Part shown: positions 1 through 13,507 of the stretch, one piece after another
How positions within the stretch are numbered: position 1 is the stretch's first letter
Layout of the letters: the number at the start of each line of letters is the position of its first letter
Source of the DNA: Prevotellaceae bacterium
Lineage (GTDB): Bacteria > Bacteroidota > Bacteroidia > Bacteroidales > UBA932
Length of the DNA: 17,275 nucleotides
Direction of reading: 5' to 3'
Assembly (NCBI GenBank): GCA_031268055.1
Contig: JAIRXY010000022.1
Coordinates: 1 to 17,275 of the forward strand
Translations under genes and position numbers: made by a program
Notes under the pieces: generated by a model
Seen by the model: the letters and a program-made list of their open reading frames with translations, nothing else
Database searches by the model: none
Told to the model about the DNA's origin: nothing

Positions 1-16
1 CCCCTACGGGGTTTTT
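1..16 (+). terminator. Rho-independent terminator, cut by the window edge
   Basis: The window opens with CCCC, a three-base TAC loop, GGGG and five T. This is a compact GC hairpin followed by a U-run. The left arm may extend beyond the edge. It probably ends a plus-strand gene to the left, since the T-run follows on the plus strand. Confidence 0.5.
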
Positions 17-55
17 CATGCATTTGCCATTCAAAATTTTCAAATTGAGGATTTC

Positions 56-83
56 ATTCAAAATTCAAAATTCAAAATTCAAA
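56..83. repeat. Heptamer tandem repeat ATTCAAA x4, upstream of araA
   Basis: Four exact head-to-tail units of the 7-mer ATTCAAA, followed by degenerate A/T-rich sequence. The same 7-mer recurs at 12220-12247 and, in reverse orientation, at 5681-5705. A one-base variant is at 13481-13507. I see no TAnnTTTG promoter element between this tract and araA. Confidence 0.85.
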
Positions 84-137
84 ATTTGAATTTCAAAATA
101 ATTGTTTTTTTTGTTAACCCATAAAACCTTTTTTACT

Positions 138-1649
138 ATGCAGAACTTCAGCTTTGACAATTTTGAAATCTGGTTTGTAACCGGCGCGCAGCTGCTCTAC
201 GGCGGCGACGCAGTGAAACACGTAGACGCCCATTCCGGCGAGATGGTAGCAGGCCTCAACAGCTCGGGCAACCTGCCCGTTAAGGTGGTGTATAAAGGAA
301 CGGTAAACTCGTCGGCGGAGGTTTCTGCCGCGCTGAGCGCCGCCAACGCCGATAGCAAATGCGCGGGCGTCATCACGTGGATGCACACCTTCTCTCCCGC
401 CAAAATGTGGATTCACGGCCTTAAGGACTACAAAAAGCCGCTGCTGCACCTGCATACGCAGTTCAACAAGGAAATCCCGTGGAGCGAAATCGACATGGAC
501 TTCATGAACCTCAACCAAAGCGCCCACGGCGACCGCGAGTTTGGCCACATCGTTTCGCGCATGCGCAAAAATCGCAAGGTGGTGGCAGGACACTGGCAAG
601 ACCCCAAGGTGCACGAGCGCATTGCGGTGTGGATGCGCGTGGCGGCAGCGTGGGCCGACGCGCAGGATATGCGCGTTATCCGCTTTGGCGACAACATGAA
701 CAACGTTGCCGTAACCGACGGCGACAAGGTAGACGCTGAAATCCGCCTGGGCTACCACGTGGACTACTTCCCTATTGGCGACCTCGCCGCCGAGGTGAAG
801 CAGGTAAGCGAAAAGCAGGTGGATGAGCTGGTTGCTACCTACGAAAGGGAGTACGACTTTGCCGATAGCGCAAAAAAAGGCGGGAAAGACCACGTGCAGG
901 TGCGCGAGGCGGCGCGCATAGAGGCGGCGCTACGCAAATTCCTGAAGGAAAAAGGGGCAAAGGCTTTCACCACCAACTTCGACGCGCTGCACGAAATCAA
1001 CCAGCTGCCGGGGCTGGCAGCGCAGCGCCTGATGGCCGAAGGCTACGGCTTTGGCGCAGAGGGCGACTGGAAAACCGCGGCGCTGCTGCGCACCATGAAG
1101 GTCATGGCGCACGGGCTTGCCGGCGGAACATCGTTTTTGGAAGATTACACCTACCACTTCAAGGGTAAGGGCGCTATCTTGCAGGCGCACATGCTCGAAA
1201 TCTGCCCAAGCATTGCAGGCGCGAGGCCGCGCATGGAGGTGCACCCGCTGGGCATTGGCGGTAAGGCCGACCCTGCCCGCTTGGTGTTCACCGCGCACGA
1301 GGGCGCCGGAGTTGCCGCCACGGTGGTAGATATGGGCAACCGTTTTCGCATGATTGTAAACTTGGTAGACGTTATCAAGCCCGAGGCGGCGCTGCCAAAG
1401 CTGCCCGTGGCGAGCGCTCTGTGGATTCCGCAGCCCAACCTTGAGGTAGGCGCCGCCGCATGGATTTACGCCGGTGGAACGCACCACACCGCGTTCAGCT
1501 TCCCGCTCACGCGCGAGTACATGGAAGACTACGCCGAAATTGCCGACATCGAAATGATAGCCATTGACAGCAGCACGACCATCTCCGAATTTAAAAAAGA
1601 GCTGCGCTTCAACGAGGTTTACTACATGCTAAACAAAGCGCTGCAATGA
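138..1649 (+). CDS. araA: L-arabinose isomerase
   Basis: Converts L-arabinose to L-ribulose, the first cytoplasmic step of bacterial arabinose catabolism; the family uses Mn2+. The protein is 503 residues, against about 500 for E. coli AraA. It starts at ATG 138 (MQNFSFDNFEIWFVTGAQLL), because the upstream TTG at 102 adds only a phenylalanine-rich leader from AT-rich spacer. Expected active-site residues are present: E308 in GAEGDWKTAALL, E335 in SFLEDYTYH, H351 in AHMLEICPS, and H449/H450 in GGTHHTAFSFP. The signature QFNKEIPW is at 108-115. The gene is GC-rich and in the same orientation as araB at 4020, but the two are separated by an AT-rich restriction-modification cassette. No araD or araR lies in the window. 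Identification is essentially certain from sequence motifs. Confidence 0.97.
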   Translation: MQNFSFDNFEIWFVTGAQLLYGGDAVKHVDAHSGEMVAGLNSSGNLPVKVVYKGTVNSSAEVSAALSAANADSKCAGVITWMHTFSPAKMWIHGLKDYKKPLLHLHTQFNKEIPWSEIDMDFMNLNQSAHGDREFGHIVSRMRKNRKVVAGHWQDPKVHERIAVWMRVAAAWADAQDMRVIRFGDNMNNVAVTDGDKVDAEIRLGYHVDYFPIGDLAAEVKQVSEKQVDELVATYEREYDFADSAKKGGKDHVQVREAARIEAALRKFLKEKGAKAFTTNFDALHEINQLPGLAAQRLMAEGYGFGAEGDWKTAALLRTMKVMAHGLAGGTSFLEDYTYHFKGKGAILQAHMLEICPSIAGARPRMEVHPLGIGGKADPARLVFTAHEGAGVAATVVDMGNRFRMIVNLVDVIKPEAALPKLPVASALWIPQPNLEVGAAAWIYAGGTHHTAFSFPLTREYMEDYAEIADIEMIAIDSSTTISEFKKELRFNEVYYMLNKALQ

Positions 1650-1743
1650 AAATTAGGAATTGCGAATTTTAGGAATGAACTCTTCGTTTTACCAAAATCA
1701 AGGAGTTTAGGAGTGTAAGTCCGTTCAAAATATTTTAGTCACC

Positions 1744-1774
1744 TTTTTATAATCATGAAAAAACATTACTTTTG
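1744..1774 (+). promoter_or_regulatory. Bacteroidota-type promoter of the restriction-modification cassette
   Basis: A perfect -7 box TACTTTTG (1767-1774, pattern TAnnTTTG) stands 19 bp after a TTTT at the -33 position (1744-1747). Transcription would start near 1780, just where the 22-bp leader repeats begin. An enterobacterial-looking TATAAT lies at 1748-1753 but has no matching -35. Confidence 0.6.
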
Positions 1775-1781
1775 TGTAAAA

Positions 1782-1847
1782 GGGCAATTCAACGCATGTA
1801 AGAGGGCAATTCAACGCATGTAAGAGGGTAATTCAACGCATATGAAA
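1782..1847 (+). repeat. Three tandem 22-bp repeats forming the leader of the restriction gene
   Basis: Units start at 1782, 1804 and 1826. The first two are identical: GGG, then CAATTCAACGC, then ATGTAAGA. The third has one substitution (GGGTAATT) and two inserted bases near its end, so it reads GCATATGAAA and supplies the real start codon at 1842. In units 1 and 2 the corresponding ATG (1796 and 1818) is followed at once by TAA. A purine run (AAAAGGG or AGAGGG) precedes each ATG by 11 nt, or by 13 nt in unit 3, as a weak Shine-Dalgarno would. Confidence 0.9.
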
Positions 1848-2915
1848 AAAGTAGCAGCAAAGCCGAGTTTGTTCGGTATAAAACACTCAAACAGAGATTT
1901 TGAGCAAAAAGATTCGTGGGGAAAGAATCAGTTTAACTCCTCTTTTCCTGCGGCGTTATCTTCTTTTATGTCATGGAAAAATATTGAAAACGTTTACCTC
2001 GTGCTGGACAAGAATAAAAATGTTAAGCATGAAAAAATCTCGACGAAGCTGCTATACGGTATTTCGCCCGACTCAAACGATTTATACTATTCATTTGAAA
2101 GCGTTTATACCCCCTATGAGCGCTTCGTAATAGGGGAGCTTCCAAGGGTTGATTTGGTTACGCAAAAATGCAGCGACGGTACAATTCTGAAAGGAATGGA
2201 GGTTAAGCTGACAGCATTGCCCGACAATTCAACCTGCGGGCTACCTGATCACCAATTCGGAACAGAAATCGTTACCAGACCTCCCACAATAGTATATCTT
2301 GCATGCAGCATCGCCTCCATTTTTCAAAAATCATATCTACCGTTACGCCAATATTTTGCTGTAAAATTTGATAAGTTGCGCGATTGGGCTAACCCTGAAA
2401 TTGTTTTGCCCCATATTCAAGATATGATAAAGACAATTGATGCTATCCTGAGCGACTATGCTTCCAAACAAGAACCAATAATTATGCAGCCAATTTGGAA
2501 AACCAACGGCAAATCCTCGCAGCTGGCCGAAAATTGCCTTGACGTATTTGTTTGGAGTAACTTTGCTTTCGTAGAGCTGATAGTAAAAGAGCTAAGAAAT
2601 CAGCCAATCGCCAAAATAACGCGGCAAGCAAGAACGCTTGTGTGGCTATTCAAAATGCTGTATGATTTTTCTAAAGCAGGGCAGTTTTATCCGAAGCAAA
2701 TCATAAACGATTATTTGTACAATACGTTAAACAACGAGGCATTTTCGGCGAGTGGGCTTCTAACTCATTTTTTTATGCAGTGCCCCGAGCTGACTCAACC
2801 GAGAATCAAAGCGGCTGAAATCAAAGAAATTATTTTGGGTGGAGGTCAAAACCTATTAAGCCCAGAGAAGCGATTTGACGCCATTATTTTTAACACACCA
2901 ATGCTATTTAAATGA
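1842..2915 (+). CDS. Type II restriction endonuclease, HindVP-like
   Basis: Probable site-specific DNA endonuclease of 357 residues. The N-terminal block (SLFGIKHSNRDF, then WGKNQFNSSFPAAL, residues 9-39) matches my memory of the HindVP family (Pfam RE_HindVP), whose known members pair with GRCGYC systems. A PD-(D/E)XK-type centre can be read: D104 in LPRVDLV followed by E120-V-K122 in GMEVKLTALPD. The start codon is ATG 1842 inside the third leader repeat. The gene is AT-rich compared with araA and araB, which suggests transfer. It ends one base before the start codon of the methyltransferase, so the two are probably translationally coupled. No controller (C) protein gene is visible. The family assignment is from memory; a restriction role is well supported by the adjacent methyltransferase. 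Confidence 0.82.
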   Translation: MKKVAAKPSLFGIKHSNRDFEQKDSWGKNQFNSSFPAALSSFMSWKNIENVYLVLDKNKNVKHEKISTKLLYGISPDSNDLYYSFESVYTPYERFVIGELPRVDLVTQKCSDGTILKGMEVKLTALPDNSTCGLPDHQFGTEIVTRPPTIVYLACSIASIFQKSYLPLRQYFAVKFDKLRDWANPEIVLPHIQDMIKTIDAILSDYASKQEPIIMQPIWKTNGKSSQLAENCLDVFVWSNFAFVELIVKELRNQPIAKITRQARTLVWLFKMLYDFSKAGQFYPKQIINDYLYNTLNNEAFSASGLLTHFFMQCPELTQPRIKAAEIKEIILGGGQNLLSPEKRFDAIIFNTPMLFK

Positions 2916-2916
2916 A

Positions 2917-3816
2917 ATGAGGGCAGTTGATTTATTTGCAGGTTGTGGCGGTCTTTCGTTAGGTTTTCAAAAAGCAGGCATTGAGGTTGTTGGCGCTTTT
3001 GAAAATTGGAAGCCTGCCATCAATATCTATCGCGCTGACTTTAGCCATCCTGTATTTGAAAAAGATTTATCGCAAGCTACCGACTATTCGCTATTTTCGC
3101 TACTGCTACCGGATATGATTATTGGAGGTCCTCCCTGCCAAGATTTTTCAAGCGCAGGCAAGCGCAACGAGGACAGCGGGCGCGGAGGTTTAACCGTGAC
3201 TTACGCCGAAATTGTAAGTAACGTGCGCCCCCAATGGTTTGTAATGGAAAACGTAGAGCGCATTTTGAAAACGCAAAAGCTTAAGCAAGCAAAAAAAATT
3301 TTCGCCGATGCCGGATACGGGCTATCAGAAGCGGTGTTAGACGCAAGCCACTGTGGAGCTCCACAAGCACGAAAAAGGTACATACTTATTGGTAAGTTAG
3401 GAGAAGTAAACCATTTCTTGGATTACTACCTAACTAAAAATCAAAGCCAAAGCCCAATGAGCGTTTACGATTATTTGGGCAATTCGTTAGGGATAGAGTA
3501 CTACTATAGGCATCCACGCAGCTATGCTCGTCGAGGAATTTTTAGCATTCATGAGCCAAGCCCAACGATTCGAGGAGTAAATAGGCCTATCCCCAAAGGA
3601 TATAAGCCACACAATGGTGATCCTGTCAATGATTTAAGTAAAATAAGACCATTAACGACAGAAGAACGTACTTACATACAAACATTTCCAAAAGATTTTA
3701 AATGGCTTGGCAACAAAACGGAATTGGAACAAATTATTGGAAATGCCGTGCCCGTAAATTTGGCAAAATTTGTCGGTAATTGTATCAAAGAATATATTAA
3801 CAACATTAATAAGTAA
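2917..3816 (+). CDS. DNA (cytosine-5-)-methyltransferase of the type II R-M system
   Basis: Methylates the partner endonuclease's site with S-adenosylmethionine, protecting host DNA. It is 299 residues from ATG 2917; an upstream TTG at 2875 would overlap the endonuclease gene and add 14 residues that match no motif. Canonical m5C motifs appear in order: motif I DLFAGCGGLSLGF (5-17), motif IV GGPPCQDFS (70-78) with catalytic C74, motif VI ENVERI (111-116), motif VIII QARKR (150-154), motif IX RPLTTEER (244-251) and motif X GNAVPVNLAKF (275-285). The target-recognition region, about residues 180-240, is short, which fits a single-specificity enzyme. The start follows the upstream stop codon by one base with no Shine-Dalgarno, so expression probably depends on coupling. 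Base composition matches the endonuclease, not the flanking ara genes. Confidence 0.96.
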   Translation: MRAVDLFAGCGGLSLGFQKAGIEVVGAFENWKPAINIYRADFSHPVFEKDLSQATDYSLFSLLLPDMIIGGPPCQDFSSAGKRNEDSGRGGLTVTYAEIVSNVRPQWFVMENVERILKTQKLKQAKKIFADAGYGLSEAVLDASHCGAPQARKRYILIGKLGEVNHFLDYYLTKNQSQSPMSVYDYLGNSLGIEYYYRHPRSYARRGIFSIHEPSPTIRGVNRPIPKGYKPHNGDPVNDLSKIRPLTTEERTYIQTFPKDFKWLGNKTELEQIIGNAVPVNLAKFVGNCIKEYINNINK

Positions 3817-4019
3817 GGACATATTGGCACAATTATGCTGAAAAATTTAATTCAAAATTAGCCTATGGCATTCTTTGTCACCTTGTGAGCAATTGTCAGA
3901 CCTCTTTTGCTCGGCATACGTAATTTGACGCTTTTGAGAATCTCGTTGATATAGCTGGCATTCATAAAGATTTATTTATAGCATTCTACGTTGAACTTTT
4001 TAATTAACTCTAACCTGTT
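3817..4019. other. Spacer between R-M cassette and araB
   Basis: A 203-bp AT-rich gap. I see no TAnnTTTG promoter and no clear terminator after the methyltransferase. A 35-codon minus-strand frame (3858-3965, beginning MNASYINEILKSVKLRMPSK) reads without a stop. It could be the end of a mobile gene or chance; I do not recognise it. No convincing direct repeat links this end to the left end of the cassette. Confidence 0.4.
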
Positions 4020-5696
4020 ATGAAATACGTTATTGGTCTGGATTACGGCACGGACTCGTGCCGCGCCATTGTGGTAGACGCCCTCACGGGAGAAGAAATG
4101 GCCACGGCGGTGCACTACTACGCGCGCTGGAAGGATGGAAAATACTGCGACCCCAAGAGCAACCGCTACCGCCAGCACCCGCTGGACTACGTGGAGGCAA
4201 TGGAGCAAACCATCAGGGAATCGCTGAAGAAGTGCGCGCCGGAGGTGGCAAAGAGCGTGGTAGGGATTTCGTTCGACACCACCGGAAGCACGCCTGCGCT
4301 GACCGACAAGAACGGAACGCCGCTGGCGCTGCTGCCCGAATTTGCCGAAAATCCCAACGCTATGTTTGTGCTGTGGAAAGACCACACGGCTGTTGCCGAA
4401 GCTTTGGAGATAACTGCGGCGGCAAAAAAATGGGCGGTAGACTACACCCTCTACGAAGGCGGCGTTTACTCCTCGGAGTGGGTGTGGGCAAAGGCGCTGC
4501 ACATACTCCGCGAGGATGCCAGCGTGCGCCGCGCCGCCTGCTCGTGGGTGGAGCACTGCGACTGGATTTCGGCGCTGCTCACGGGCAGCACGCAGCCGGA
4601 GGCAATGGCGCGCAGCCGCTGCGCCGCCGGGCACAAGGCCATGTGGAGCGAAAAGTGGGGCGGCTTGCCTTCGGAAAATTTTCTCCTCGCCGTAGACCCG
4701 CTGCTGGCCAAGTACAGGGAAAGGCTTTACACCGAAACGTACCCCAGCGGCCACAAAGCGGGCACAATAACCAAGGAGTGGGCCGACAAGCTGGGCTTGC
4801 CCGAAAATGTCGCCGTGGGCGTGGGGGCGTTTGACTGTCACATGGGCGCTGTGGGGGCGGCCATTGAGCCCTACACTTTTGTGCGTGTCATAGGCACTTC
4901 TACCTGCGACATTATGGTTGTGAAGCCGGAGGAGATGGGTAGCGAGCCCATCAGCGGAATATGCGGACAGGTGGACGGGTCGGTTATTCCGGGCATGGTT
5001 GGCTTGGAGGCAGGGCAGTCTTCCTTTGGCGATGTGTACGCATGGTTTAAGCGAATACTGTCGTTTCCCGTCGAAAATATTTTGGCAAAGACCAAGCTGG
5101 TGGATGAGGAAACGCGCCGCCAGCTGGTAGCGGAGGCCGCTGACGAAATCATTCCTGCGCTGACCAAAGAGGCCGAAAAGATTCCGATTGAGGAAAGCGC
5201 TATCGTTGCTACCGACTGGCTGAACGGCCGCCGCACTCCCTACGCCAACCAGCAGCTCACGGGCAGCATTACGGGGTTGAGCTTAGGCAGCGCCGCGCCG
5301 CTCATCTTCCGCGCGCTGGTTGAGGCTACCGCCTTTGGCTCAAAGGCCATTGTAGACCACTTTGTCGACGCGGGCATAAGGATTGACAGCGTGACGGGCA
5401 TTGGCGGCATTTCGCTCAAGTCGCCGTTTGTGATGCAAACGCTTGCCGACGTGCTGAACATGCCCATTCGGGTTTGCAAAACGGAGCAAGCCTGCGCGCT
5501 TGGCGCTGCCATGTTTGCAGCGGTGGCCGCCGGCGTTTACGCTAAGGTAGAAGATGCTCAGCAGGCAATGGCGCAAGGTTTTGCGTCGAGCTACACGCCC
5601 GACGGCAAGCGTCACGAGGCTTACGCAAGGCTGTACGCCAAATACCGCACCTTGGGAGAATTTAGCGAAAAGAGCTTGGGGAATTTTGAATTTTGA
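4020..5696 (+). CDS. araB: Ribulokinase (FGGY carbohydrate kinase)
   Basis: Phosphorylates L-ribulose with ATP to L-ribulose 5-phosphate, the step after AraA. It has 558 residues, against 566 in E. coli AraB. The N-terminal nucleotide-binding loop GLDYGTDSCRAIVVD (6-20) has the ribulokinase form G-x-D-[YF]-G-[ST]-D-S. Other family marks are GISFDTTGS (82-90), GVGAFDCHMGAVGA (about 267-280) and the C-terminal FGGY signature around GIGGISLKSPFVMQ (about 460-473). The D-S pair after the first glycines and the neighbouring araA favour ribulokinase over xylulokinase. The last residues NFEF and the stop codon are written by a TTTGAAT heptamer repeat that begins at 5681. A rho-independent terminator follows at 5766. 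Confidence 0.95.
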   Translation: MKYVIGLDYGTDSCRAIVVDALTGEEMATAVHYYARWKDGKYCDPKSNRYRQHPLDYVEAMEQTIRESLKKCAPEVAKSVVGISFDTTGSTPALTDKNGTPLALLPEFAENPNAMFVLWKDHTAVAEALEITAAAKKWAVDYTLYEGGVYSSEWVWAKALHILREDASVRRAACSWVEHCDWISALLTGSTQPEAMARSRCAAGHKAMWSEKWGGLPSENFLLAVDPLLAKYRERLYTETYPSGHKAGTITKEWADKLGLPENVAVGVGAFDCHMGAVGAAIEPYTFVRVIGTSTCDIMVVKPEEMGSEPISGICGQVDGSVIPGMVGLEAGQSSFGDVYAWFKRILSFPVENILAKTKLVDEETRRQLVAEAADEIIPALTKEAEKIPIEESAIVATDWLNGRRTPYANQQLTGSITGLSLGSAAPLIFRALVEATAFGSKAIVDHFVDAGIRIDSVTGIGGISLKSPFVMQTLADVLNMPIRVCKTEQACALGAAMFAAVAAGVYAKVEDAQQAMAQGFASSYTPDGKRHEAYARLYAKYRTLGEFSEKSLGNFEF

Positions 5697-5739
5697 ATTT
5701 TGAATCGAGCGAAGTGAGCTCACGAACTCCGAAAAAAAC
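5681..5739 (+). repeat. Composite intergenic repeat, copy A (heptamers plus palindromic head)
   Basis: About 3.5 units of GAATTTT (5681-5705) overlap the end of araB. They are followed by CGAGCGAAGTGAGCTCACGA, then ACTCCG and an A-run. The middle holds the palindrome GTGAGCTCAC (5714-5723). The reverse complement of the whole element matches copy B at 12190-12247, apart from a short difference in the palindromic part. Confidence 0.85.
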
Positions 5740-12189: not shown

Positions 12190-12247
12190 TTTTTTCGGAG
12201 TTCGTGAGCTTGCTGCTCGATTCAAAATTCAAAATTCAAAATTCAAA
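12190..12247 (-). repeat. Composite intergenic repeat, copy B
   Basis: A T-run, CGGAGTTCGTGAGCT, then TGCTGCTCG and four exact ATTCAAA units (12220-12247). It is the inverted counterpart of copy A at 5681-5739: identical over the CGGAGTTCGTGAGCT block, the GCTCG junction and the heptamers, and different only in the few bases between them. Confidence 0.85.
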
Positions 12248-13323: not shown

Positions 13324-13499
13324 CTTACAAAGAGGCTATTGCCGAAGTAGAAAAAATATTGGAGCAGCTGGAAAGCGGCGCGCTGGACGTAGACTGCATG
13401 TCGAGCACGGTGAAGCGCGCTGCCGACCTCCTACAGCTGTGCCGTAAAAAGCTGCACGCTACGGAGGAAGAAGTGAAAAAATTGAAAATTGAAAATTGA
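13305..13499 (+). CDS. xseB: Exodeoxyribonuclease VII small subunit
   Basis: The small subunit of ExoVII, which degrades single-stranded DNA from both ends together with XseA. It has 64 residues, normal for the family (about 60-80). The family pattern is clear: LTYKEAIAEVEKILEQLESG (6-25), then LDVDCMSSTVKRAADLLQLC and a coiled-coil tail. No xseA is in the window. The start codon lies inside xerD (19-bp overlap), so translation is probably coupled. The last codons LKIEN and the TGA stop are written by an ATTGAAA heptamer repeat, which suggests that the original 3' end was replaced or trimmed. Confidence 0.92.
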   Translation: MPTKELTYKEAIAEVEKILEQLESGALDVDCMSSTVKRAADLLQLCRKKLHATEEEVKKLKIEN

Positions 13500-13507
13500 A
13501 AATTGAA
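13481..13507 (+). repeat. Heptamer tandem repeat ATTGAAA at the xseB end
   Basis: Three exact units of ATTGAAA and one partial unit. Each carries TGA, and the 7-base period shifts the frame by one each time, so all three frames are closed. The third TGA (13497-13499) ends xseB. The glycosyltransferase relic begins directly after it. Confidence 0.8.

Follow-up and report, generated by a model that had tools for sequence, protein, structure and literature searches.

The gene for a type II restriction endonuclease in this genome is preceded by three tandem copies of a 22-bp leader segment, and wherever two copies meet the sequence reads ATGTAA, a start codon followed at once by a stop codon. The reading that we favor, with a probability of about 0.6, is that the leader was triplicated privately in this lineage, that the start-stop sites are by-products of the copying, and that their effect on expression is at most modest. 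The array lies in a window of 17,275 nucleotides, the whole stretch of DNA that was analysed, which originates from a 2.07-Mb draft genome (74.5% complete; the "own genome" below).

The restriction-modification locus

The relevant features of the window are listed below.

138 (ATG) to 1649: araA, flanking the restriction-modification (R-M) operon
1767..1774, + strand: -7 box TACTTTTG of a Bacteroidota primary-sigma-type promoter (pattern scan, TAnnTTTG)
1778 (about 1777-1781), + strand: predicted transcription start, placed from the -7 centre
1775..1796, + strand: 22-bp unit 1, TGTAAAAGGGCAATTCAACGCA
1797..1818, + strand: 22-bp unit 2, TGTAAGAGGGCAATTCAACGCA
1819..1840, + strand: 22-bp unit 3, TGTAAGAGGGTAATTCAACGCA
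1796..1801, + strand: first junction ATGTAA (start-stop), the last A of unit 1 plus TGTAA of unit 2
1818..1823, + strand: second junction ATGTAA (start-stop), the last A of unit 2 plus TGTAA of unit 3
1842..2915, + strand: type II restriction endonuclease (R), BsaHI/HindVP family, 357 aa (PF09519, E=3e-135)
2558..2565, + strand: TAACTTTG, a tentative candidate for a methylase promoter box within the endonuclease gene
2917..3816, + strand: C5-cytosine DNA methyltransferase (M; PF00145, E=3.8e-65)
4020-5696: FGGY-family kinase gene, by position probably that of ribulokinase

The R-M pair is a two-gene operon bracketed by araA and the FGGY kinase gene. The gene behind the repeats had been called a restriction endonuclease in the first-pass annotation, and this identity is confirmed by a match across the full PF09519 profile (1-332 of 332). 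The protein possesses EVK, a putative catalytic ExK motif, at residue 120 and SPEKRFD at residue 340; for BsaHI, PMC2413257 describes EVK as the proposed catalytic motif and SPERRFD at the position of SPEKRFD. Since both the EVK motif and, with one substitution, SPEKRFD are shared with BsaHI, the endonuclease is probably active on GRCGYC. The window holds 17 GRCGYC sites, a count that decides nothing on the target of the enzyme. In a genus relative (G047:C44; L009, L011, and L012) the endonuclease gene is found in three stretches, one with an internal stop, and looks broken.

The methylase gene starts 1 nt past the endonuclease stop, and its product begins MRAVDLFAGCGG, so short a lead-in that an N-terminal regulatory domain would not fit. 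Translational coupling of the two genes is likely from this spacing, and any brake in the leader would consequently probably act on both. The view that a controller protein is missing agrees with the present scan for regulators, which covered araA, R, M, and the kinase gene: no controller gene was seen beside R among ORFs of at least 60 aa between these four genes.

The operon looks like an insertion (about 1650-4010) that separates araA from the kinase gene. Both of these genes were found at the locus in six genus relatives (L139-L143 and L145), where their matched ends are 12-119 bp apart, a gap into which the restriction genes would not fit. The homology of genus relatives to the window stops on the left at about 1645-1654 and resumes on the right at about 4004-4023. 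AT-rich tandem repeats of 7 bp were observed at gene ends or in gaps at 56-99, 5681-5705, 12220-12247, and 13478-13507.

Predicted promoter and transcript

The promoter of the operon was located by computation. In Bacteroides thetaiotaomicron the promoter element is centred at -7, with a further element at -33 (PMC7366714), and such a centre places +1 near A1778, 3 nt inside unit 1. The first-pass prediction of a transcript that begins at the onset of the repeats is thus congruent with the -7 box, itself a prediction. At the -33 position (about 1744-1748) the sequence is TTTTT, which matches only weakly. A match to an E. coli-type promoter at 1724-1753 was set aside as the less likely candidate, as the phylum uses another sigma consensus. 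Counted from A1778, the leader would be about 64 nt long; the two AUG-UAA sites fall at about +19 and +41, and the real AUG follows at +65.

A terminator scan of positions 1-5000 listed none on the + strand. Transcription may thus continue from araA into the operon, in which case the leader would be longer than the first-pass annotation assumed. Within the promoter region an ATG opens a 22-codon ORF (1755-1823) whose stop is the TAA of the second ATGTAA. Its translation would require a transcript with a 5′ end upstream of the predicted one, for example by read-through from araA. The sequence ATGAAAAAA is found both in the promoter spacer (1755-1763) and at the real start (1842-1850), possibly by chance. 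The candidate methylase box inside the endonuclease gene is retained in 8 of 14 relatives read by eye (8 of 10 with at least 75% identity, 0 of the 4 others) and falls within the codons of a conserved run, WSNFAFVE.

The repeat array and the origin of the start-stop sites

Tandem Repeats Finder reports the array at 1775-1841 with a period of 22, 3.0 copies, 95% matches, and a score of 120. At a lag of 22 there are 42 matches in 44 positions, whereas the best of 2000 mononucleotide shuffles reached 28 of 44 (1650-1841, any lag of 10-39). The three repeats described in the first-pass annotation are therefore real, and with this score and these shuffles a chance origin was ruled out. An assembly artefact is unlikely, given that the units differ at two positions. 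The array directly follows the -7 box and precedes the endonuclease gene at 1842.

The ATG with its immediate TAA at 1796 and at 1818 was correctly described, as was the purine run 11 nt before each ATG. Unit 3 had been thought to carry a two-base insertion that leads into the real gene. It does not: unit 3 ends in CGCA as the others do and is then followed by the flank TATG in place of TGTAA. Each unit opens with TGTAA and closes with CGCA, and where two units meet the final A and TGTAA combine to ATGTAA. Unit 1 is preceded by TTTTG, which gives no ATG, and unit 3 is followed by TATGAAA, which contains the real start. The start-stop sites exist only at the junctions, and each extra copy therefore makes one automatically; they need no separate origin and no separate selection.

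The three units show only two base differences in total, so the intact state of both ATGTAA sites says little on selection. These same differences imply that the array has lasted some time, and selection could explain its persistence. Paired ATGTAA sites 12-20 nt apart are not rare in the own genome (7, against 10 for a reversed-pattern control). From their sequence context the start-stop sites look more like by-products of copying than a purpose-built brake. The case carries a general caution: duplication of any leader segment that starts with TG and ends with A yields start codons for free, and repeated start-stop sites alone are no evidence of design.

Comparison with related loci

Besides the window's own locus, 58 relative loci were compared, and the start of R could be placed in 42 of them (41 distinct, as L008 equals L020). 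In none of these 42 do the 150 nt upstream of R contain a tandem repeat with a period of 12-59, and among the 16 leaders with unplaced starts, the nine read by eye contain no tandem either. The ten relatives with at least 75% identity likewise have no repeated leader. A methylase gene accompanies R in 55 of the 58 loci. The two genes share a strand in 54 of these, and the distance from the endonuclease end to the methylase is -4 to +33 nt in 49 of the 54.

The relatives have a shorter leader. A TAnnTTTG box precedes the R start in 22 of the 42; for 21 of these the nearest box is at 18-45 nt, and for the remaining one at 94 nt. In the window this distance is 67 nt; minus two units it is 23 nt, which is inside the usual 18-45 nt of the relatives. 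Single start-stop sites (ATGTAA, ATGTAG, or ATGTGA) occur within 100 nt upstream in 9 of 42 relatives (8 of 41 distinct), never in tandem. At three of these loci (L014, L015, and L017) an ATGTAA begins 3 nt after the -7 box, which would put it at the extreme 5′ end of the transcript. After the box, several close relatives have a stretch resembling TTTGC-N3-YRTAA.

The array is private among the sequences examined. The pattern occurs in one of 11 genus genomes, the own one, and the own draft genome contains no further copies, the three matches with up to 3 mismatches all being in the array. A protein search of the order found R in 5 of 393 genomes, these being the own genome and four already among the loci compared. 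Positions 1500-2100 match no known RNA family at E up to 1, no copies of 1690-2000 were found in the plasmid collection, and viral contigs gave no match to one exact repeat pattern and none to the endonuclease. Among the open-access literature matches listed, no title concerns start-stop repeats ahead of a restriction gene, which is a weak negative.

Possible ribosome use of the upstream AUGs

Bacteroidia ribosomes are reported to fail to recognize Shine-Dalgarno (SD) sequences (PMC6847099; PMC9976891), and in the own genome SD-like 4-mers precede 13 of 123 starts as against 7 of 123 in a shifted control. The purine runs, which might be taken for ribosome-binding sites, are therefore poor candidates for that role. 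A start-context profile from 123 genes of the own genome, which is a shallow one, puts the upstream AUGs at the 76th and 63rd percentiles, above the real start at the 11th, by which measure they may capture ribosomes; for the downstream context the real start is at the 72nd percentile versus the 11th and 15th for the upstream AUGs. In Flavobacterium johnsoniae an A is described as helpful at -3, -6, -12, and -13 (PMC6847099; PMC9976891). The upstream AUGs have an A at 0 of these four positions and the real start at 2.

AUG is reported as avoided near Bacteroidetes starts (PMC6847099), and ATG is found in the 20 nt before the start in 7 of 126 genes of the own genome, versus 28 and 28 in the next two intervals. 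This local avoidance is weak evidence here. Because the first ATG of each gene was taken as its start, in-frame upstream ATGs are absent by construction; out of frame, ATG occurs in 7, 21, and 18 of 126 genes and the control triplet GAT is equally depleted (6, 15, and 20 of 126); and G046, a family relative, shows hardly any depletion of out-of-frame ATG (41, 50, and 50 of 290). Long leaders of the own genome do not notably avoid AUG: 875 nt of them contain 8 ATG, and the counts for five control triplets are 9-15. Two or more AUGs are present in 2 of 15 long leaders in the own genome and in 2 of 15 in G046, so such leaders are not rare. A search for the 16S tail gave one match with a mismatch, from which nothing was concluded.

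Predicted folding of the leader

The GCAUGU at each junction is self-complementary if G-U pairs are counted, and the upstream AUGs can pair with each other; the AUG-AUG hairpin alone has a computed energy of -4.8 kcal/mol. In the fold of three units plus 45 nt of coding sequence, the upstream AUGs have unpaired probabilities of 0.04 and 0.02 and the real AUG one of 0.57. With one to five units and the same 45 nt, the real AUG is unpaired at 0.67, 0.06, 0.57, 0.34, and 0.58, and the pattern for one to three units is stable at 25, 30, and 37 °C. The leader as a whole is of average stability, 49% of 500 dinucleotide shuffles being as low or lower. When the inner parts of the units were shuffled with the junctions kept, both upstream AUGs fell below 0.1 unpaired in 172 of 500 cases, so that masking is no sign of design. 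The difference between three and two units in the accessibility of the real AUG, observed at 0.51, exceeded 0.5 in only 8 of 500 such shuffles. It shrinks as coding sequence is added: the values for two and three units are 0.16 versus 0.54 with 90 nt and 0.69 versus 0.68 with 150 nt, at which length the first upstream AUG is no longer masked (0.65).

Alternative explanations

The first-pass annotation regarded the leader as a decoy: ribosomes would initiate at the upstream AUGs, stop at UAA, and reach the endonuclease gene less often, which would keep the enzyme low with no controller protein. The predicted leader does contain two AUG-UAA sites, at distances of about 19 and 41 nt from its 5′ end, and the first is only 2 nt short of the position that the start codon would occupy in a one-unit leader. 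The own-genome profile and the reported avoidance of AUG near starts also speak for their use. Against this stand the weakness of the avoidance signal, its near absence in long leaders, the lack of A at all four helpful positions, and the pairing of both AUGs in the short folds; moreover, ribosomes that end at UAA may reinitiate downstream. Design is not borne out by sites that arise at unit junctions and are in tandem in 0 of 42 relatives, nor would the endonuclease be lowered selectively if the methylase is positioned for coupling. A decoy effect is possible and not indicated; as an account of the array we consider it unlikely. The sign of any effect is not fixed either, as published upstream minigenes and repeated starts raise or lower translation (PMC8708949; PMC9723656). 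Ribosomes might load at the 5′ end and reinitiate downstream, or shield the transcript from decay, and the start-stop sites would then raise expression. In the axe-txe leader, inactivation of both minigenes is reported to lower downstream translation over 8-fold, and removal of the whole minigene segment raised it by 30% (PMC8708949). Tandem initiation sites in Bacillus licheniformis increased GFP up to 5-fold, with a useful spacing of 15-21 nt, but the same arrays lowered output in E. coli (PMC9723656), where termination-reinitiation at start-stop sites has been demonstrated (PMC9841429). Those systems rely on SD pairing, which is generally unused in this phylum, and the spacing here is 22 nt; a helping role for the start-stop sites is accordingly quite improbable.

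The folds raise a further thought, namely that copy number acts as a switch. An odd count of units would let the upstream AUGs pair mutually, so that the real start is free; an even count would leave one of them to pair with the real start and close it, and slippage by one unit would toggle the operon. The alternating values for one to five units, their constancy with temperature over one to three units, and the rarity of so large a gap among the shuffles fit such a scheme. The loss of the gap with 150 nt of coding sequence does not, nor does the average fold energy, and no copy-number variants were seen among the genomes compared, which are one per species. We consider the switch very improbable; were it true, 22-bp slippage would flip the whole R-M operon with promoter and reading frame untouched. 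The repeats could also be DNA, not RNA, elements: an array of operators for a repressor, spaced two helical turns apart, as the 22-bp period and the location directly downstream of the promoter would allow. The unit contains no inverted repeat of at least 6 bp, and the four genes scanned (araA, R, M, and the kinase gene) include no regulator. A second site is absent from the draft genome, as are tandem sites from the 42 relatives, and the methylase is without an N-terminal domain. An operator array is therefore scarcely credible.

A private triplication of the leader remains the preferred reading. We surmise that a 22-bp segment of the ancestral leader was copied in one lineage, by two tandem duplications or by one triplication, and that this segment was approximately the whole ancestral leader, beginning just past the -7 box and ending shortly ahead of the start codon. 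Each added copy would have created a junction AUG-UAA as a by-product. In the resulting three-unit leader the upstream AUGs would pair mutually, leaving the real AUG about as accessible as with one unit. The net effect would most likely be small, a leader longer by 44 nt and a modest change in endonuclease translation, and translation of the methylase would probably be changed too via the 1-nt gene junction.

Relation to known systems

If the upstream AUG-stops are used, they would constitute a protein-free restraint of a restriction enzyme in a phylum whose ribosomes generally ignore SD sequences, and the leader would cleanly test how ribosomes of this kind select one AUG out of several. The AUG-stop upstream ORFs of plants, as in NIP5;1, similarly have an AUG directly followed by a stop in the leader; they act on eukaryotic scanning ribosomes and there is no homology. 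Other routes to R-M control include the reverse promoters and antisense RNA described for EcoRI and Eco29kI (PMC3874152).

The axe-txe minigene is comparable: it too runs from AUG to UAA over a very short distance, and the gene whose leader contains it is potentially lethal (PMC8708949). The minigene differs in that it reads ATG-ACT-TAA, has translation signals, and was tested for function, whereas the present AUG-UAA has no further sense codon, is born of a junction, and is known from sequence only. The engineered tandem initiation sites of PMC9723656 are also head-to-tail repeats, each with a start codon, ahead of the real gene, but they are SD-based, and their upstream starts extend the protein N-terminally with no immediate stop. 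The operon itself belongs with the BsaHI/HindVP R-M systems (GRCGYC), with which the window shares a full-profile PF09519 endonuclease, EVK, SPEKRFD (SPERRFD in BsaHI; PMC2413257), and an adjoining C5 methylase. The present system, whose GRCGYC target is putative, is distinguished by its location inside an arabinose operon and by its triplicated leader.
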